From: Commensalibacter nepenthis
Lineage (GTDB): Bacteria; Pseudomonadota; Alphaproteobacteria; Acetobacterales; Acetobacteraceae
DNA length: 64,000 nucleotides
Assembly: GCF_029953305.1 (NCBI RefSeq)
Contig: NZ_JASBAN010000001.1
Span: forward strand, 1,325,501-1,389,500
Reading direction: 5' to 3'
The notes beneath the pieces were generated by a model that was not told where the DNA came from, searched no databases, and saw only the letters and a list, made by a program, of their open reading frames with translations. Below are positions 12,224 to 28,298 of this stretch, one piece after another. Within the stretch, counting starts at the first letter, position 1, and each line of letters starts with the position of its first letter. The translations under genes were made by a program, and so were the position numbers.

Positions 12224-13957
12224 TCAAAAGTTTACACCTGCTTGAAAGGATGCGATCCACCCTTCTGGACGCAGCCCACTGGTTGTAATGGCATGGGTTG
12301 CGGATGCGTCCCATATAAACCGTTTTCCGGTGCGTCTTATGCCTATTCCTGAGCCTGCAATATTCCCGCTTTTTCTTATGTTTGATTGGGTTGAATGGTC
12401 GAATACAGCACGGATCATCCCTGTATCAAGGAGGGTATATATTTCTGTTCCTTTAATAAATGTATCGCAAAAACCTTGATAAGAACCACATTTCATGTGC
12501 TCTGTAGGTAATGTCCAAAACAGATCATTGCGCATAAAAATTCCTGCATTACCTATTAAACTTTGTTTAAGAAATCCTCGAACGGTATAGGGACCGCCAA
12601 TTTGTATTTTACTGTTATTATATTGGTTTTTATTGCTATATTCACCATGAATAGAGGTGTGCCAGACAAGTGATTTAGTAATGGGGCTGTATCCATCAAT
12701 ATCAATAAAAGGCTTTACGTATTTCACATGAGGATTATATTCCCCAGTATTGACTACATATGTTTTCGTAGCCATTTCATTTAATCCAATTTTGCTACCC
12801 AAGCTTAAAAACCACGTACGTCCCCATATTTTTAAGAATTCGTTTGCACTGATATTGAGAGAGGACAAAGTAGCACTTTGTGAACGTAATTTTTGATGGT
12901 TAGTATAATTTTCAAAAGTTTCTGTTTGGTATTCTATACGAATAGAAGTAACGTCAATACGGGTTCTATTGATGACTCTGGAAAAACCTGCATGAAAATT
13001 TTTCTGTGTTGAGTCTGCACGTTGAGGATAATTTTTGATATATGTAGGATTATACATATCATCAGAGCGCCACCATCCTCCAAAAAATATCCATGGACCC
13101 ATTGGGATAGAACCTTGTACAGTAAAGAATGAATTATGTCCGATACTTTGTCGTGCATTTAAGGAATGATCGTACTCAAAAGACCATACGTCTAATAGAT
13201 GTAATAAATTACCTGTGGTTACTATAGAACGTCCCATTGTGCGACCTGAATTACTTTGACTGTAATTGTCAGAGAAAACTTTACCATGGATGATCCCCGC
13301 ATTTGGTAATTCAATGTTGACAACGGATGCGTTGGGATCTTGACCAGGCACGATTTTCATAGAAATTTCCCAATTGGGTATCCGATTTAATTGGTCGATC
13401 CCTTGAGCAATATCTTCAAAATCCAAAACATCATTTCGTTGCCAAGGAAAAGCTAAGAACTCGTAAGTTCCTTTTTCTTCGCCATTAAATATAAAGGACT
13501 CTAGTTTCCCTTCCATTGCAGAAATACGTAAATGTCTAGAAGATAAATCTTGTTTAGGAAAATACATACGGGATGTAATATATTTTTGGTCAATATATTG
13601 TTGATTTAATGTATTTAATAACTGATGTAGGTCATCAACGGTTAGGCATCGGTTTTCCCATTTTTTGGTGATATGATGCACTGTTGATGGTGATAATTTG
13701 TAGGCGTTTTCAACGGTAATTAAGTTGATTTCCACACAGTTGTGAAGTTTAAAGGGAAAATCCTCACTTTTCATTTTAATACTGGGTGGCAGGGCATCTG
13801 ATGTATCCATTCTTTGTTGGCGTTGTTGATATTGTAAATATTGAAGTGAACGGAGATATTGGTTGTTGTTGTAATAAGCAAATGCCTGATTTGCAGCGGG
13901 AGAAAGGAGGATAAAGTATAGACATGATATTTTAAAGATAATCTTGAGTTTTTCCAT
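12224..13957 (-). CDS. two-partner secretion outer-membrane translocator (ShlB/FhaC/HecB family)
   Basis: Start ATG at 13957 gives a signal peptide ending NQAFA and has AAGG upstream; six extra residues are possible to 13975. After a short Gln/Tyr-rich segment, residues about 60-140 look like a POTRA domain (TVHHITKKWENRC, LHQLLNTLNQQYIDQKY, SAMEGKLESF). The rest is a 16-strand barrel of TpsB type ending in an aromatic residue (QAGVNF), with the family motif IQIGGPYTVRGF (the VRGF/Y tetrad of the L6 loop). TpsB pores export a large TpsA adhesin or toxin from the periplasm. No TpsA-like gene lies within the window, so the partner is either elsewhere or lost. Promoter region holds a possible Fur-like site. 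Confidence 0.88.
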   Translation of the reverse strand: MEKLKIIFKISCLYFILLSPAANQAFAYYNNNQYLRSLQYLQYQQRQQRMDTSDALPPSIKMKSEDFPFKLHNCVEINLITVENAYKLSPSTVHHITKKWENRCLTVDDLHQLLNTLNQQYIDQKYITSRMYFPKQDLSSRHLRISAMEGKLESFIFNGEEKGTYEFLAFPWQRNDVLDFEDIAQGIDQLNRIPNWEISMKIVPGQDPNASVVNIELPNAGIIHGKVFSDNYSQSNSGRTMGRSIVTTGNLLHLLDVWSFEYDHSLNARQSIGHNSFFTVQGSIPMGPWIFFGGWWRSDDMYNPTYIKNYPQRADSTQKNFHAGFSRVINRTRIDVTSIRIEYQTETFENYTNHQKLRSQSATLSSLNISANEFLKIWGRTWFLSLGSKIGLNEMATKTYVVNTGEYNPHVKYVKPFIDIDGYSPITKSLVWHTSIHGEYSNKNQYNNSKIQIGGPYTVRGFLKQSLIGNAGIFMRNDLFWTLPTEHMKCGSYQGFCDTFIKGTEIYTLLDTGMIRAVFDHSTQSNIRKSGNIAGSGIGIRRTGKRFIWDASATHAITTSGLRPEGWIASFQAGVNF

Positions 13958-14004
13958 GCTTACTACCTTAAACAAGATATTATCAAGTCATTGATTTGTT
14001 ATAT

Positions 14005-14183: not shown

Positions 14184-17100
14184 ATGATTTTGTTTAACCA
14201 GCGTAAAAGATTATGGCTCAGTACGATGTTGGTTCAGGTTGGACTATTAAGCGGTGGTGTATTTTCCTTTTCTGCATTTGCGGTGGAACAGCAGGATTCA
14301 AAAGAACAAGCATTAATGCGTTATCCGACTTTACATGGGGGTAAGATCGCTTTTGTTGCTCGTGGTGATGTGTGGGAAGTGGAAAAACAAGGGGGAACAG
14401 CTCGTCGTTTAACCGCTGATACGGGCGAGGATTTAATGCCCAGATATTCGCCCGATGGAAAATGGTTGGCTTTTACTGCCAGTTATCAAGGAAACCGTGA
14501 TGTTTATGTGATGCCGGCTGCTGGTGGAGCGGTTAGGCGGTTAACCTATCACTCTGATGTGGTTGCTTCTGCTCCAGAGCGGTGGGGGCCTGATAATATG
14601 GTGGTGACTTGGACGCCTGATTCAAAAGAGATCGTTTTTTTATCCCGTAGAAATGCGTGGAACAGCTGGATGAGCCTTCCATTTACAGTTTCTATTGATG
14701 GCGGTTTGCCTAAACAATTGCCGCTCGATCGTTCTGGTTTTATGAGTTACGATACTTCGGGTAAAGAAATTGCTTATACGCGTATTTATCGCGATTTTCG
14801 TACATGGAAACGCTATGACGGTGGTTTGGCGCAGGATGTTTATACGTATAATTTTGATACGAAGAAGTTAAATCAAATTACGCATTGGAAAGGCACTGAC
14901 ACTATTCCAATGTGGTATCAGAATAAGATTTATTTCTTGTCAGATCGTGATGCCAATCGCCGTTTGAATTTGTGGGTGTATGACAAGAACACAGGCGAAA
15001 CAACACAAGTTACCCATTTCACAGATTATGATATTGATTTTCCATCATTGGGTGATAATGGTATTGTTTTCCAACAAGGCGGTAAATTATATGTTTTGGA
15101 TTTGCCGTCAGAGCAGCTTCATACTGTATCTGTTAAAGTTCCCGATGACGGCACACGTACCATGCCTCGTTTTGTAGAGGTTAATGATTCTATTCGTAAA
15201 ATTGATGCTGCACAACAACCAGATTATTCAATTTCTCCTAATGGTAAACGTGCTGCTTTTGCCGCCAGAGGGAATATTTTTACGGTTCCTGTGGAACATG
15301 GTGCCATTCGGAATTTGATTTATGCTAGTGATGTTGATGCCGATCATCCTGTATGGTCGCCTGACGGGCAGTGGATTGCCTATACAACAGACAAAAACGG
15401 TGAACAAAATATTGCTATTCGTCCATCAGTTGGTGGAGAAGAAAAAATCCTAACGGATTTTAAATCAGGATATTATTATGCACCACGTTTTTCACCAGAT
15501 GGCAAAAAACTAGCCTTTTCTGATGGAAATCATAATTTATGGTTGATTGATGTTTCTGGTAAAAATTTAAAGAAAATTGCTGTTGATCGTAACGCAGAAA
15601 TTCATGATTTTAATTTTTCTCCTGACAGCAAATGGATTGTGTATAGTTTAACACAGGCTAATCAACAGCGTAATTTATGGGTGTATAATATTAATCAAAA
15701 TATGCCTTCTCGCTTAACTACAGGTCAAAATAGTGATTATTTACCTGTATTTTCTCCTGATGGGAAATATTTATATTTTGTTTCTAATCGTTATGAAAAT
15801 ACGGTGTTTGCCGATAATGAAATGAACGCCTTAACGGTTAAAAGTGCGGGGATTTATATTGCGACTTTAGCCAATGATACTCCGTCACCTTTTGCTGTGC
15901 GTTCTGATGAGGGGCAAACCGAAACTAAGGAAAGCAAGGAAGATAAAGAGGCAAAAAAACCATCTGTTCCTGATGTAAAAATTGATACCCAAGGATTTGG
16001 TGAACGAATTGTTCCGGTGCCAATGACAGGGGGTGAGATTACCGATATGCAAGCTGCTGGGGACAAGATTTATTATCTATTATCTCCACCGCAAACGATT
16101 TCAGGAGAATTTTCTGGTGAAAAGCCTGAATTGCATGTTTATGATTTAAAAGAACGCAAAGACACATTAATAGAAAAAGGGATTGATAATTACAGCCTTT
16201 CTTATGATGGAAAGAAGGTTCTTTATAATCAAAAAGACTCTTGGATAATCGCGGATGCTAAAGAAAAACATGCCGATGATAAAACACTAGATGTTTCTTC
16301 GATGCGTGTTCGGATAGAACCACCCAAAGAATGGCAAGAAATGTTCGAGAATGCTTGGCGTTTACAAAGGGATTTATTCGTAAATCCGAAAATGAATGGT
16401 CAAGATTGGCAAGCTGTTCATGATAAATATGCGGCTCTTGTTCCTTTGGCTGGCTCTCGTTCCGATGTAAATTACATTATTGGGCAAATGGTGGGTGAGA
16501 TAGGGAACTCTCATACCTATGTTGGAGGTGGTGACCAACAAGATCCTGTCAAAGCTGTTTCAACGGCGCTGTTAGGGGTGGATTTTGCCTATGATGCACA
16601 AAAAGAGCGTTATTCATTGGCTAAGATTTATCAAGGGGATAATAGTCGTAAACAATATCGCAGTCCTTTGACCGAGTCTGGATTGAATATTCATGAAGGG
16701 GATTATTTATTGTCTGTTAACGGGCAAGAGATCAAAGGAAATGTGAATCCTTATCAATTCTTTGTTGGGGTTTCTAATCCTGTGCGATTGTCTTTTGAAG
16801 ATAAAGATACAGGTAAAGTCAAAAATGTTGAAGTTAATACCGTTAAAAATGAACTTTCTTTAAAAGAAAGAGAGTGGGTAGAACATAATCGCCAGATAGT
16901 CGATCGTTTATCCAATGGTCGAATTGCCTATATTTATCTATCTGATATGGAAGAATTGGGAATGCAGCAATTTATTCGCCAATTTTATTCTCAGCTTGAT
17001 AAACAAGCTGTGATTATTGATGACCGTTGGAATGGGGGTGGTTTTATCGATCAAATTTTATTGGAAAGATTAAGACGTATCTTGGTTGGTATGACGACTA

Positions 17101-17576
17101 ATCGTGAAAAGATGCAAGCAACCTTGCCTCAACAATTGATTAATGGACCTAAAGTAACCTTGGTGAATCAATATTCTGCCTCTGATGGCGATATTTTCCC
17201 CTATTATTTCCGTAAATACGGATTGGGTAAAGTCATTGGTAAACGCACATGGGGTGGTGTCCGTGGTATTCGCGGATATTGGCCTTTACGTGATGGTGGA
17301 TATATTACCATTCCAGAGGAAAGCCTGTATGGATTGAATTCTGAATGGATTATCGAAAATCATGGGGTTGAACCTGATATCGAAGTTGAAAATACACCTG
17401 GTGAGTTACAAGAGGGTCATGACAAACAACTGGAAACGGCAGTTAATTATTTATTAAAAGAATTAAAAGATCATCCTTCTGTTTTACCAGCCCCCCCAAG
17501 TTGGGATACGGCTTATCCTCCTCAAGGGGAGCCTTTTGCGAAGAATGCTTCAGAAGCAAAGCATAATTCGAAATAA
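14184..17576 (+). CDS. periplasmic tricorn-like S41 peptidase with beta-propeller
   Basis: 1130 residues with a signal peptide (cleavage near FSAFA). The N-terminal ~600 residues carry TolB/WD40-like propeller repeats, e.g. PRYSPDGKWLAFTA, PVWSPDGQWIAYT, PRFSPDGKKLAFS, then a charged linker. A PDZ domain lies at about 830-885 (HEGDYLLSVNGQEI). The peptidase part carries all tricorn active-site elements: GNSHTYV (Ser-His near 775), YSASDGD (nucleophile Ser near 998) and PEESLYG (Glu near 1045). Tricorn in archaea is a cytosolic protease that trims peptides; bacterial homologues with signal peptides probably degrade peptides in the periplasm. It is transcribed alone, divergent from the TpsB gene. 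Confidence 0.9.
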   Translation: MILFNQRKRLWLSTMLVQVGLLSGGVFSFSAFAVEQQDSKEQALMRYPTLHGGKIAFVARGDVWEVEKQGGTARRLTADTGEDLMPRYSPDGKWLAFTASYQGNRDVYVMPAAGGAVRRLTYHSDVVASAPERWGPDNMVVTWTPDSKEIVFLSRRNAWNSWMSLPFTVSIDGGLPKQLPLDRSGFMSYDTSGKEIAYTRIYRDFRTWKRYDGGLAQDVYTYNFDTKKLNQITHWKGTDTIPMWYQNKIYFLSDRDANRRLNLWVYDKNTGETTQVTHFTDYDIDFPSLGDNGIVFQQGGKLYVLDLPSEQLHTVSVKVPDDGTRTMPRFVEVNDSIRKIDAAQQPDYSISPNGKRAAFAARGNIFTVPVEHGAIRNLIYASDVDADHPVWSPDGQWIAYTTDKNGEQNIAIRPSVGGEEKILTDFKSGYYYAPRFSPDGKKLAFSDGNHNLWLIDVSGKNLKKIAVDRNAEIHDFNFSPDSKWIVYSLTQANQQRNLWVYNINQNMPSRLTTGQNSDYLPVFSPDGKYLYFVSNRYENTVFADNEMNALTVKSAGIYIATLANDTPSPFAVRSDEGQTETKESKEDKEAKKPSVPDVKIDTQGFGERIVPVPMTGGEITDMQAAGDKIYYLLSPPQTISGEFSGEKPELHVYDLKERKDTLIEKGIDNYSLSYDGKKVLYNQKDSWIIADAKEKHADDKTLDVSSMRVRIEPPKEWQEMFENAWRLQRDLFVNPKMNGQDWQAVHDKYAALVPLAGSRSDVNYIIGQMVGEIGNSHTYVGGGDQQDPVKAVSTALLGVDFAYDAQKERYSLAKIYQGDNSRKQYRSPLTESGLNIHEGDYLLSVNGQEIKGNVNPYQFFVGVSNPVRLSFEDKDTGKVKNVEVNTVKNELSLKEREWVEHNRQIVDRLSNGRIAYIYLSDMEELGMQQFIRQFYSQLDKQAVIIDDRWNGGGFIDQILLERLRRILVGMTTNREKMQATLPQQLINGPKVTLVNQYSASDGDIFPYYFRKYGLGKVIGKRTWGGVRGIRGYWPLRDGGYITIPEESLYGLNSEWIIENHGVEPDIEVENTPGELQEGHDKQLETAVNYLLKELKDHPSVLPAPPSWDTAYPPQGEPFAKNASEAKHNSK

Positions 17577-18354: not shown

Positions 18355-18711
18355 TCACAATAACGGTAAATGCGGTAAAAATATGGTGTAATACCCAGTA
18401 GCAAGCGTGCAGCTGTCGATTTTTTTGCCATTTTGTATGGGGCATTGATACCAATGATGGTTTTCAAGGAACATTGCAAAACCATCTTCTTCTTTACACT
18501 CTTTTTTCAATTGTCCGTTTGCAACAGTGCATTTTTTATAAAGCTCTTTTTCTTTGACAAAATAATAGCCATCTGCTGGATTGCAGTTAATCGTTGCAAC
18601 GCCGTCTTTAATCCAACATCTTTTATAATTAGCATGTGCAGAGTAAGAACCCAGCACGCTTGAAAAACATATTCCTAAGAGAGTAAGGAATGCTATATGG
18701 TTACTAGGCAT
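18355..18711 (-). CDS. small secreted protein with three Cys-x10-Cys repeats
   Basis: Start ATG at 18711 gives a signal peptide ending near SAHA; the longer frame to 18774 would bury it. The 118-residue product then consists of three repeats with an exact 29-residue period: Cys32/Cys43, Cys61/Cys72 and Cys90/Cys101, each Cys-x3-(Asp/Asn)-Gly-x5-Cys-x4-Gly-(Tyr/Phe), preceded by an aromatic residue (NYKRCW, LYKKCT, WYQCP). Each pair probably forms a disulphide in the periplasm or outside the cell. I do not recognise the family. Single gene, convergent with the DUF805 gene. Possible roles such as surface binding are speculation. Confidence 0.7.
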   Translation of the reverse strand: MPSNHIAFLTLLGICFSSVLGSYSAHANYKRCWIKDGVATINCNPADGYYFVKEKELYKKCTVANGQLKKECKEEDGFAMFLENHHWYQCPIQNGKKIDSCTLATGYYTIFLPHLPLL

Positions 18712-18828
18712 AATATTTATAGTTCCTATATTGAGATGCAGAATACAAAGAATGATATTGTTTTTGGGGGTCAAGATAGCTTAGGATGCATAAGGAATAA
18801 ATTCTTTTTTATACATAAAGGATAAAAA

Positions 18829-19293
18829 GTGCAAAAATATTATCAAATTAGTTTTGCAGCTCTTTCCATATTCATCGGACTTAGTGTTGCTGGAACGTCT
18901 GTATATGCGATTGAGGTCAAAAGCTCTCTTCCAAAAGAAAATCAAACATTACAGGCAGGCATTCAAGAAATTATGTTGAAATACGATCATGAGTTTAATC
19001 CTTTTCGCAGTAGGTTATTGTTGGTTGGTGAAAAGGGAGAACCGAAACTTATTCCTGCAACGGTTTCATTGGATCATACACAGGTGAAAACAACTTATCC
19101 GTTAATTGCTGGAAAATATAAATTACAATGGCAGATTTGGACTTGGAAAGGCGAAGAAAGCTCTGGTGAAATTCCTTTCACTGTTGTTGGAAATGCACAT
19201 GATACCAATCACTCCACAGCTAATTTTAGTCCAGCTCCAGCAACGAATGGACAAAGCGGTAATGCCAGCGCAAAGCAAGCACCAAGTAATTGA
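18829..19293 (+). CDS. CopC-domain secreted protein
   Basis: 154 residues from GTG at 18829, with AAAGGA upstream. The signal peptide ends near SVYA. The mature domain of about 95 residues has the CopC beta-sandwich pattern: SSLPKENQTL, IMLKYDHEFNPFRSRLLLV, and AGKYKLQWQIWTWKGEESSGEIPFTV, where the last part matches the 'G-x-Y-x-V-x-W-x-x-x-S-x-D-G-H-x-x-x-G-x-x-x-F' signature in degenerate form. The mature N-terminal His and the DGH motif of copper-binding CopC are absent, so copper binding is doubtful. The last about 30 residues are low-complexity (Asn, Ser, Pro, Ala) and are encoded antisense to the end of ccmB. Confidence 0.7.
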   Translation: MQKYYQISFAALSIFIGLSVAGTSVYAIEVKSSLPKENQTLQAGIQEIMLKYDHEFNPFRSRLLLVGEKGEPKLIPATVSLDHTQVKTTYPLIAGKYKLQWQIWTWKGEESSGEIPFTVVGNAHDTNHSTANFSPAPATNGQSGNASAKQAPSN

Positions 19294-23530: not shown

Positions 23531-24685
23531 ATGAATCATTCAATTTCTTTGCCACGCTATGTCGAATATGGTAAAAATGCTATTCAAAAATTACCTGAAT
23601 TATTAAAAAAAATTGGAATTTCAGCACCTTTTATTATCAGCGATCAAGTGATGTTAGCATTAGGTTTTGTAGATCAACTTTCAGATGTTTTACAAGAACA
23701 GGATTTTGGAATTTTTACCAATACGGTGCCTGAGCCTACTGCACAATCTATTGTGAATGGTGTGGTAGCGTTTGAGTTGGGACAATATGATGGTATTGTT
23801 GCCTTAGGTGGAGGCAGTGTTATTGATAGTGCCAAAGCAATTGCAATTTTAGGACGATTTGGTGGTAAAATTCAGAATTATAAATTCCCATATAGAATTG
23901 ATAAACCAGGATTGCCTATTATTGCTATTCCTACAACTGCTGGAACGGGGTCAGAATGTACAGCGGTTACTATTATTACTGATGAAATTACACAAGAAAA
24001 GATGTTGTGTATGGGAGACGGTTTACTACCAACAGCAACGATTATCGATTATAGGTTTACAGTAACTGTTCCCAAAAGAATTACCGCAGATACAGGGATT
24101 GATGCTTTAACGCATGCGATTGAGGCATATGTAAGCAAAAAAGCAAATTTATTTAGTGATCAACAGGCTTTGTCAGCAATGCGTTTGATTGGTAAAAATA
24201 TTTTAACAGTATATCACGATGGAAAAAATGAAACAGCCAGAGAGGCAATGTTATTAGCTGCAATGCTTGCAGGTGTAGCTTTTTCTAACTCTTCTGTTGC
24301 GTTGGTACATGGAATGAGTCGCCCTATAGGTGCGTTTTTTCATGTTCCTCATGGATTATCAAATGCGATCTTATTGCCATTGGTAACAGAATATTCCATT
24401 GGCGCTGCGTCAGAACGATATGCACAATGTGCCAAAGCAATAGGAATGGCAGAAGAAAAAGACGATATTCTTGTAGCTAATCAAAAATTAATAAAAGGTT
24501 TATATCAGTTAAATAAAGAACTTGAAGTGCCGAAAATTCGGTCTTTGGGAATTGAATATGACAAATTTAATCAAGTAATTCATATCATGGCAGAACAATC
24601 ATTAAATTCAGGATCGCCTTTTAATAATCCTAAAGTCCCTTCGGCAAGTGAGATTATTGAGATATATCAAAATTTATGGGTATAA
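23531..24685 (+). CDS. iron-containing alcohol dehydrogenase
   Basis: 384 residues of the group III (Fe-dependent) ADH family. NAD-binding GGGSVIDSAKAI lies at about 96-107, TTAGTGSE near 139-146, and the metal ligands are in DALTHAIEAYVS (Asp and His), VHGMSRPIGA and PHGLSNAILLP. Length and motifs match FucO/DhaT/YiaY-type enzymes that reduce short aldehydes or oxidise alcohols with NAD. GTGTATTGGG precedes the ATG. It converges on pflA; beside PFL and GldA it probably helps reoxidise NADH by reducing an aldehyde, but the substrate cannot be read from sequence. Confidence 0.9.
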   Translation: MNHSISLPRYVEYGKNAIQKLPELLKKIGISAPFIISDQVMLALGFVDQLSDVLQEQDFGIFTNTVPEPTAQSIVNGVVAFELGQYDGIVALGGGSVIDSAKAIAILGRFGGKIQNYKFPYRIDKPGLPIIAIPTTAGTGSECTAVTIITDEITQEKMLCMGDGLLPTATIIDYRFTVTVPKRITADTGIDALTHAIEAYVSKKANLFSDQQALSAMRLIGKNILTVYHDGKNETAREAMLLAAMLAGVAFSNSSVALVHGMSRPIGAFFHVPHGLSNAILLPLVTEYSIGAASERYAQCAKAIGMAEEKDDILVANQKLIKGLYQLNKELEVPKIRSLGIEYDKFNQVIHIMAEQSLNSGSPFNNPKVPSASEIIEIYQNLWV

Positions 24686-24712
24686 ATTACAGTATTTGTA
24701 AAAACTGTTGTA

Positions 24713-25462
24713 TCAATAAATGACTTTATGTCCGTAACTTGTCAAAATAGAGTGTAATCGTTTTAACGTCTCAACTGATGGAGGCTCAATGCCTTTTAAT
24801 TTATAATCTTTGCCCAAAGTTTTCCATTTACTTGCACCCATTTGATGGAAAGGTAATAGTTCGATGCGTTCAATATTATCCATATCTTTGGTAAATTGCC
24901 CCAATAAATGTGCAGATTCATTATCATCTGTCCATCTTGGAACAATCACATATCGTATCCAAGTACGTTTATGTTGTTGATATAAATATTCTGCAAATCG
25001 TTTAGCATATTGATTAGAAATACCTGTCAATTTTCTATGGATATCATCATTGATTTGTTTTAGATCAAGCATGACGAGATCAGATTCATTGACCAAATTA
25101 ATAATATCTTGGTTATAGTCACCGACATAACCATTGGTATCAAGACAAGTTGTAAGATTTTCTTGATGCACTGCTTTAAAAAGTTCTGTTATAAATTTTG
25201 CTTGTAAAACAGCTTCTCCACCAGAAGCCGTAACCCCACCGCCATTAGGTTGTAGGAAAGATTTATAGGTTACGATTTCTTTCATCAACTCTGGAACGGT
25301 GACAGTTTGCCCGCCTTTAATATCCAAAGCATCGGGATTATGACAGTATAAACATTGCATTAAACAGCCTTGAACAAAGACAATAAATCGAATTCCATCC
25401 CCATCAACGGTACCAAAAGATTCAACGGAATGAATACGTCCTGTAATAAGTTCTGCTGACAT
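24713..25462 (-). CDS. pflA: pyruvate formate-lyase activating enzyme
   Basis: Radical-SAM enzyme that installs the glycyl radical on PflB. The cluster motif is GCLMQCLYCHNPDA (Cys-x3-Cys-x2-Cys, about residues 32-39), preceded by VDGDGIRFIVFVQG. Further on are GGGVTASGGEAVLQ, DTNGYVG and DLVMLDLKQ, all typical of E. coli-type PflA. 249 residues, full length. It follows pflB by about 90 bases that contain a strong hairpin. Needs low oxygen to work. Confidence 0.95.
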   Translation of the reverse strand: MSAELITGRIHSVESFGTVDGDGIRFIVFVQGCLMQCLYCHNPDALDIKGGQTVTVPELMKEIVTYKSFLQPNGGGVTASGGEAVLQAKFITELFKAVHQENLTTCLDTNGYVGDYNQDIINLVNESDLVMLDLKQINDDIHRKLTGISNQYAKRFAEYLYQQHKRTWIRYVIVPRWTDDNESAHLLGQFTKDMDNIERIELLPFHQMGASKWKTLGKDYKLKGIEPPSVETLKRLHSILTSYGHKVIY

Positions 25463-25487
25463 GTTGATGCTTTCATTGATAGTTGTA

Positions 25488-25513
25488 AGAAAGACCCTAT
25501 AAAGGGTCTTTCT
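25488..25513 (-). terminator. hairpin between pflB and pflA
   Basis: AGAAAGACCCT and AGGGTCTTTCT form an 11-bp perfect stem with a 4-base loop, between the pflB stop and the pflA start. The minus-strand sequence after it (TTACAACT) lacks a T-run, so it is more likely a partial terminator or an mRNA-protecting stem that lowers pflA relative to pflB. Confidence 0.65.
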
Positions 25514-25553
25514 GTTCGTATTGGTTAGTTATAGAGTAAAGGATTACTTAATC

Positions 25554-27836
25554 TTACATAGAAGCTGTAAATGTACGATTAATGACATCATTTTGCTGTT
25601 CAGTAGTAAGCGAGTTAAATCTCACTGCATATCCAGAAACACGGATGGTTAGGCTTGGATATTTCTCTGGATGTTGTTGCGCATCAACCAAAGTTTCTTT
25701 GTTAAAGACGTTCACATTCAGATGCTGCCCCCCTTCGCGATTATCATTATGGTGGAAATATCCATCCATCATACCCGCAAGGTTTGCTTTACGCACAGAA
25801 TCGTCTTTTCCTAAAGCATTTGGAATAATAGAGAATGTATACGAAATCCCATCTTTTGCATAAGCATAAGGAAGTTTAGCAACGGAAGTTAATGAAGCAA
25901 CAGCACCCTTTTTATCACGCCCATGCATTGGATTTGCACCAGGTCCAAACGGAGCCCCTGCACGACGACCATCGGGGGTATTGCCTGTTTTTTTACCATA
26001 AACGACATTTGACGTAATAGTTAATACAGATTGTGTTGGTATGGCGCCACGATACATAGGAAGTTTGCCGATTTTCTTCATGAAGCGTTCGACAAGATCA
26101 CATGCGATATCATCTACACGATTATCATTATTTCCGAATTGAGGATATTCCCCTTCAATTTCAAAATCAACGGCAACACCATTTTCATCACGAATTGGAC
26201 GCACTTTGGCATATTTAATGGCTGATAATGAATCTGCAGCAACGGAAAGTCCTGCAATACCACAAGCCATTGTGCGAATAATATCGCGGTCGTGTAAAGC
26301 CATTAAGGCTGCTTCATAGCTATATTTATCGTGCATATAATGGATGCAGTTCAGTGCGGTGACATATTGTTTTGCCAACCAACCCATAAAATTATCCATA
26401 CCTGCCATAACTTTATCAAAGTCAAGTAATTCATCCATCATTGGGGCTGTTTTAGGGCCAACTTGAAGTTTGGATTTTTCATCAATACCACCATTGATAA
26501 CGTAAAGTAATGTTTTGGCAAGGTTTGCACGTGCGCCAAAGAATTGCATTTGTTTGCCAACCACCATTGGGCTAACACAACATGCGATGGCATAATCGTC
26601 ACTGTTAAAATCAGGACGCATTAAATCATCATTTTCATATTGCAATGATGAAGTGTCAATAGACACTTTACTGCTGAATTCTTTGAACCCTCGAGGAAGT
26701 TTTTCAGACCATAGAATAGTCATGTTCGGCTCTGGAGAAGGTCCCATTGTATAAAGTGTATTTAGGAAACGAAAAGAATTTTTGGTGACTAACGTACGAC
26801 CATCCAGCCCCATGCCACCAACAGATTCTGTTGCCCAGATTGGATCACCAGAGAAAAGCTCGTCATATTCTGGTGTACGAAGGAAACGAACCATTCGTAA
26901 CTTCATGACAAAATGATCGATAAATTCTTGTGCTTGTTCTTCGGTAATTACACCATTATCAAGATCACGTTGAATATAAATGTCTAAGAATGTAGAGGTG
27001 CGTCCCAAAGACATTGCTGCACCATTCTGAGATTTTACAGCTGCTAGATAGGCAAAATATGTCCATTGGATGGCTTCTTGAGCATTGGTTGCTGGCTCAG
27101 AGATATCATATCCATAGGATGCTGCCATGGTTTTCATATCATTTAAGGCACGATATTGTTCCGTAATTTCTTCACGTAAACGAATAGTTTCTTCTAGATT
27201 CTTACCAGTTTCTAAGTCTTGTTGTAGTGAATCAAACTGTTTGCGTTTATCCGCCATTAAAAAGTCAATACCATACAGGGCTACACGGCGATAATCCCCA
27301 ATAATACGACCGCGACCATACGCATCAGGAAGACCTGTGATGACACCTGACTTACGACAAGCCATGATTTCTGGTGTATAAACATCGAAAACGCCTTGGT
27401 TATGGGTTTTGCGATATTTTGTAAAGATTTCTAATACTTCAGGATCCAAAGCTTTATCATAAGCTTTACAAGAGCTTTCAATCATACGAATACCACCATT
27501 GGGCATGATCGCACGTTTTAATGGCTTGTCTGTTTGCAAACCAACGATTTTTTCCAAGGATTTATCAATATATCCAGCTTCATGAGATGTAATGGATGAG
27601 ATAATTTTCGTATCAAAATCGAGTGGTGCCTTGGTGGCATTTTCGATTTTAATCCCTTCCATGACTTCAGCCCATAATGTATCCGTTGCTTGAGTGGCAG
27701 AGGCTAAAAAGGTTTCATCCCCCTCATAAGGGGTATAGTTATCTTGGATAAAGTCACGAACTTCAACTTTGCTTTTCCAAGAAAAACCTTTAAATCCTTT
27801 CCAAGCGATGGCTTGTTTTTCAGTAAGGTTAGACAT
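25554..27836 (-). CDS. pflB: formate C-acetyltransferase (pyruvate formate-lyase)
   Basis: Splits pyruvate and CoA to acetyl-CoA and formate without oxygen. Start ATG at 27836 has GGAG at a good distance; a second ATG at 27848 overlaps that site. 760 residues, the full E. coli PflB length. The catalytic cysteine pair is in IACCVSPM and the glycyl radical site in [13 protein letters not shown] near the C-terminus. Long stretches ([45 protein letters not shown]) read almost as in enterobacteria. No focA formate channel is adjacent. The enzyme is destroyed by oxygen, so its presence in an aerobic lineage is notable. Confidence 0.97.
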
Positions 27837-28298
27837 ATTGATCTCCATAAATCATTTAATAAGAGAAAGTCGTTTTCATTTTATGATGAAATGATAGGCA
27901 AATCCTTTTTTAATACGTTACCGAAAACAATAATGAAGAATATTCGTATTCAATTTAATAATAAGAATAATAAGATTTAATGTTCGAATAATATGAGATG
28001 CATAAAATTGAATAAAACAGCGTAAATTGGCGAGACCTCTGAATAAAAAGCAAGAGGCGTTAAAGAAAATTTTATATTTCGCCAGTCTCTTCATAGATTC
28101 TAACTTTATAGAATATTCACTATATTGTCATAATGATATTAAATCACGTTATTGTGATTTTTATTCTAGGGTTAAATCTGAATCTTTTCAAGGGTTAACT
28201 GATATTTTTTGTAAATAAAGTTAATCATTTATTAATAATTATAAAATCTGTTAGAGTGGGTGTTGATATGTAATTTTATAGTAAACAAGGAAATAATT
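27837..28298. other. regulatory/intergenic region between divergent pflB and gldA
   Basis: About 460 AT-rich bases holding the promoters of the two divergent genes. It contains a palindrome AAATCAC (28141-28147) and GTGATTT (28154-28160) with a 6-base loop, which could be an operator or a hairpin, and the open frame described at 28027-28218. I found no match to the FNR consensus TTGAT-N4-ATCAA. Confidence 0.45.
28027..28218 (+). other. possible short coding region or gene remnant
   Basis: A 63-codon frame beginning at TTG reads MARPLNKKQEALKKILYFA and ends DIFCK. The composition is protein-like and the basic N-terminus resembles the start of small DNA-binding proteins, but no family is recognised. 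There is no ribosome binding site; the frame is open a few codons further upstream (IKQRK) without an ATG. It could be the remnant of a regulator transferred with the fermentation genes. Weak call. Confidence 0.25.

Follow-up and report, generated by a model that had tools for sequence, protein, structure and literature searches.

Temperate phages carry small envelope-directed genes, the morons or lysogenic-conversion genes, in accessory slots of the prophage that lie opposite or beside the late operons. Well-known examples are sieA of phage P22 and the genes for the Ltp lipoproteins. The gene described here, from Commensalibacter nepenthis, has relatives in slots of the same kind. There is no sequence match to SieA or the Ltp lipoproteins and, unlike these, the family is made up of neither membrane proteins nor lipoproteins.

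The closest described sequence set is phrog_13161 of PHROGs v4, a phage cluster with no name and no assigned function, for which the matching phage records at hand are phage-plasmids of Zymomonas. Its members have a signal peptide and three paired-cysteine units, and two-unit variants exist. More distant points of comparison are the beta/gamma-crystallins (PF00030) and their bacterial relatives, with the signature [FY]xG....L..G.Y, and the short antiparallel hairpins of fibronectin type I modules and MORN repeats.

The window, a stretch of 64,000 nucleotides from contig NZ_JASBAN010000001.1 (positions 1,325,501 to 1,389,500), encodes a protein that matches phrog_13161 over its repeat region (E 4.5e-8, residues 24-107). 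Like the members of the cluster, it has three paired-cysteine units behind a signal peptide. Unlike the phage members, it is encoded at a chromosomal slot, its cysteine pairs are Cys-x10-Cys and its units have diverged from one another. The initial annotation had suggested that the pattern might be undescribed. This holds for Pfam and NCBIfam, neither of which has a family for the protein, and the literature searched held no description of one, but phrog_13161 already clusters its relatives. What is new, then, is an exported cysteine-repeat family without a name; the unnamed cluster was already known, as were the broad kinds to which the family belongs, exported cysteine-repeat proteins and phage cargo.

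Gene, repeat units and chromosomal setting

The gene occupies 18355-18711 on the reverse strand and encodes 118 amino acids. Its ATG, at 18711, agrees with the starts of the orthologues, and AGGAA at 18723-18727 (reverse strand), 11 nt 5' of the ATG, is a candidate ribosome-binding site. By inspection, residues 1-27 (18631-18711, reverse strand) form a predicted signal peptide that ends in SAHA before NYK and has no lipobox; Ala27 is unchanged across 8 aligned orthologues. One cysteine, at residue 15, lies within the signal peptide. The other six are arranged in pairs, Cys32/Cys43 in unit 1 (residues 29-57, 18541-18627), Cys61/Cys72 in unit 2 (residues 58-86, 18454-18540) and Cys90/Cys101 in unit 3 (residues 87-115, 18367-18453), all on the reverse strand. 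Each pair probably forms one disulphide within its unit.

The open reading frame, its translation and the six cysteine positions are as first described, and that observation is confirmed as a whole. If six cysteines were scattered randomly over the 91 residues of the mature part, some doubly periodic arrangement of this kind would arise with p about 3e-5. In addition, 23 residues are identical at the repeat lag, whereas shuffled sequences (n=5000) average 11 and never exceed 20, so the regularity exceeds chance. The repeats had been called exact, which is true of the cysteine spacing alone, since the units are only 21-31% identical in pairwise comparison and have 6-9 of 29 residues in common. 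Nor is a period of 29 constant across the family. A single residue is inserted in one Commensalibacter orthologue, so that 29 is not fixed even within the genus. In members outside Commensalibacter the cysteines of a pair are spaced Cys-x9-Cys and the period is 29-31, the range found in the enterobacterial relatives.

When 398 genomes of the bacterial family were searched in six frames, the gene was found in 9/9 Commensalibacter genomes, in single copy, and in none of the 389 others. Conservation in close relatives, on which the initial annotation had staked its reading, is therefore present, and this is a real, conserved gene of the genus. All six paired cysteines are invariant (8 sequences aligned), and dN/dS among the nearer orthologues is about 0.12-0.20, indicating purifying selection. 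In the closest orthologue pair the repeats have changed less than the signal peptide. Across Commensalibacter the three units are distinct from each other and each is fixed.

A short intergenic region (18712-18828) is common to this gene and a divergent CopC-domain gene (Pfam CopC) at 18829-19293 (forward strand). By synteny, the head-to-head layout is kept in 8/8 genomes compared, the window included. In the window the 3' end of the CopC-domain gene overlaps ccmB on the opposite strand. The slot is bounded by a tricorn-type protease on one side and copC-ccmB-ccmA-acnA on the other wherever these neighbours are found, the protease flank being found in 7 of 8 genomes with the window counted. 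The protease of the window (14184-17576, forward strand) is large and has a signal peptide, a PD40 propeller, and PDZ and S41 domains. The conserved slot has no phage genes, and no prophage adjoins it today.

Relatives in phage-plasmids, prophages and chromosomes

With tblastn, relatives turned up on plasmids of Zymomonas mobilis some 36 kb in size (E 2e-6 to 6e-6), as well as in Z. mobilis subsp. pomaceae. These plasmids encode P2-type capsid, tail and terminase genes; of the 47 predicted genes of pZM36, 27 have been called phage-related (PMC5930841). The relatives are present as 7-9 paralogues in tandem, flanked by a RelB/YafQ pair and the P2-type tail genes D/U. Arrays of these paralogous secreted genes lie at L016:6556-9622, L012:2382-5697 and L015:16688-19467, and their gene content varies by strain. 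Each paralogue has a signal peptide followed by two or three near-identical units of 29 amino acids, of the form YKxCx[IF]xxGxKxxCxxP[FY]xGxxVILDxG; the two-unit variants occur on two of the plasmids. Variation in repeat number, which had been expected among acetic acid bacteria, thus exists in Zymomonas and not in that group.

In DNA the Zymomonas units are 85% identical within one gene and 56% identical across the genes of one plasmid. Within a gene, pS is 0.25-0.33 and pN 0.04-0.06. The units of one gene have diverged at silent sites and hardly at all in protein, which argues that their equality is maintained by selection.

Plasmids of Rahnella also carry relatives (tblastn), and six Rahnella records were found. 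In 4/4 records examined it belongs to a prophage and lies between the gene for antiterminator Q and a cassette of holin, endolysin (lysozyme) and Rz genes, on the strand opposite to the lysis operon. Seven IMG/VR contigs carry it as well. A joint profile of the Commensalibacter and Zymomonas proteins then detected members scattered over chromosomes of Enterobacteriaceae. Two chromosomal enterobacterial members, at L061:7415-7732 and L062:7520-7942 (both reverse strand), have no phage genes in view; the latter has a long extra C-terminal tail. No relative came up when E. coli genomes were searched at the DNA level with one of the enterobacterial members. A further match, in genome G860, was set aside as a family member for its internal stops.

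Could these similarities reflect cysteine spacing alone? The window protein scores 34.2 bits on a profile of the Zymomonas and enterobacterial relatives. When its Cys, Gly and aromatic residues were held in place and the others shuffled (n=1000), the scores had a mean of 9.2 and a maximum of 26.6 bits, so the homology goes beyond cysteine spacing. Every relative tested matches phrog_13161. Scans of viral contigs by cysteine spacing gave true members only in Zymomonas elements, the remaining matches being of low complexity or not open frames with the pattern, and a viral scan with the alignment of the window's own family found none. Pfam also gave isolated weak matches (V4R, Thionin, DUF333 and Carb_bind), which fall below cut-off and were put down to cysteine or repeat bias. 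No member found has an annotated function. The relatives are mostly temperate-phage cargo, and the family is much wider than the acetic acid bacteria. The original interpretation, an exported repeat protein of the disulphide type, survives as far as it went; it had missed the wider family and the link with phages.

Predicted fold

From a shallow alignment of 9 sequences, AlphaFold gives a confident all-beta model, with block-mean pLDDT of about 87-94 over residues 31-110 (about 90 in unit 1) and low confidence, as expected, over the signal peptide. The predicted fold is a beta-meander, with strands that recur in each unit. The structure prediction that had been proposed as a check thus came out in favour of a repeat fold. 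Together with the signal peptide seen by inspection and the DsbB and DsbA-like genes for periplasmic disulphide machinery in the genome, it supports the view of an exported repeat protein of the disulphide type. A model of a Zymomonas member made without an alignment was too poor for use (pLDDT 52).

Foldseek against the PDB and viral models returned nothing at E below 0.3. Fibronectin type I modules and MORN repeats appear in the structural list as weak entries (E above 0.5, TM below 0.35) and differ from the window protein in their cysteine pattern. The matches to pesticin and a sybody in the PDB search (E above 0.4) were taken as chance. Those to Pizza-propellers in a profile search were rejected, being sums of repeats of below 7 bits each and with no cysteines.

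Possible roles

We tentatively favour a reading in which this is an exported, disulphide-stapled family of beta repeats, carried by temperate phages as a moron and fixed in Commensalibacter, that binds the envelope and leads to a changed envelope or to superinfection exclusion. The gene product would be exported to the periplasm or the surface. Each 29-residue unit would consist of a beta hairpin and a third strand pinned by the disulphide within the unit, and three units would stack into one compact beta domain. The family would have travelled as the accessory cargo of temperate phages unrelated to one another, the P2-like Zymomonas phage-plasmid and lambdoid-type Rahnella prophages among them, and one copy would have become a fixed, domesticated chromosomal gene in the ancestor of Commensalibacter. 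Exposed hairpins may bind a component of the cell envelope or part of an incoming phage, from which lysogens would gain a changed envelope or superinfection exclusion, and the Commensalibacter copy may have been retained for a related envelope role. That members recur in accessory slots of temperate phages with no relation to each other is in keeping with lysogenic conversion or superinfection exclusion. Against this reading, PADLOC gave no match to known defence proteins, and the Zymomonas paralogues show no diversifying selection (pN/pS about 0.5), such as an arms race might leave. There is also the absence of a prophage beside the Commensalibacter copy and of phage genes around the two enterobacterial chromosomal copies.

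Other explanations were weighed against this one. The protein might be a stable secreted factor that acts on an insect or plant host, or on the gut environment, and has been spread by phages among bacteria of sugar niches. Commensalibacter live as symbionts in the guts of insects (PMC10149009), the single copy is fixed in the whole genus, and the harsh gut suits disulphide-rich exported proteins. However, the largest arrays are those of Zymomonas, for which the recorded sources are cider and fermenting sap and no host is shown, one Rahnella came from cold-smoked salmon, and no eukaryote-like domain was found; we regard a host-directed role as unlikely. A role in the periplasm as a modulator of phage lysis, or as an inhibitor of a protease or peptidoglycan hydrolase, would suit the Rahnella copies, which adjoin the lysis genes. 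Their orientation opposite to the lysis operon speaks against it, as do the Zymomonas arrays, which adjoin tail genes, and the lack of nearby lysis genes for the Commensalibacter and two enterobacterial copies, and it seems to us a decidedly improbable explanation. Still less probable is a partner of the divergent CopC-domain protein in the handling of copper or another metal. The conserved head-to-head layout and the six conserved cysteines would agree with this, but in the CopC-like neighbour both the N-terminal histidine and the usual copper ligands are missing, no copC is found near the relatives outside Commensalibacter, and the cysteine pairs look structural.

Might this instead be a Greek-key protein, in a degenerate or miniature form of the beta/gamma-crystallin type? 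The Zymomonas units read [YF]xGxxVILDxGxY, which is the b-strand signature of crystallins at equal spacing. Pfam Crystall matches 6/10 relatives, though at best with E 3e-5, below its curated cut-off, and a Zymomonas-based profile compared with bacterial crystallins beats 100/100 column shuffles. Yet HHalign gives a probability of 2% across 26 columns, and the window's own family scores within the shuffles, with no signal. The window protein itself neither matches PF00030 nor has the signature, its period is 29 residues against about 40, it has three units where crystallins have paired motifs, and no crystallin is among the 50 fold matches listed. We consider a crystallin-type protein as doubtful as a lysis-related one, and the resemblance a weak lead.

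To return to an envelope-directed phage cargo, a bolder form of the idea, which we regard as a long shot, is a phage binding protein with pseudo-threefold symmetry. With its three identical disulphide-stapled units, kept so by selection, it would have as many equivalent faces with which to cap a trimeric target, for example an outer-membrane porin or the tail fibre of a competing phage. The arrays of 7-9 paralogues would then be a repertoire of specificities, and the Commensalibacter copy a domesticated one with specialised faces. The Zymomonas arrays, with units near-identical in each gene and divergent across genes, offer a ready-made series in which to examine what the repeats bind. If exclusion is the function, it would represent a new, small and soluble type of envelope defence. 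A chromosomal gene fixed across a genus of insect symbionts is linked with the cargo of unrelated phages through a family that has neither name nor function.

Two other features of the window were recorded. An FhaC/ShlB-type outer-membrane transporter of a two-partner secretion system is encoded at 12224-13975 (reverse strand). Genes for an iron-type alcohol dehydrogenase, a radical-SAM activase and a pyruvate formate-lyase-like glycyl-radical enzyme lie adjacent to one another at 23531-27848, a cluster that is unexpected because acetic acid bacteria are usually regarded as strictly aerobic.
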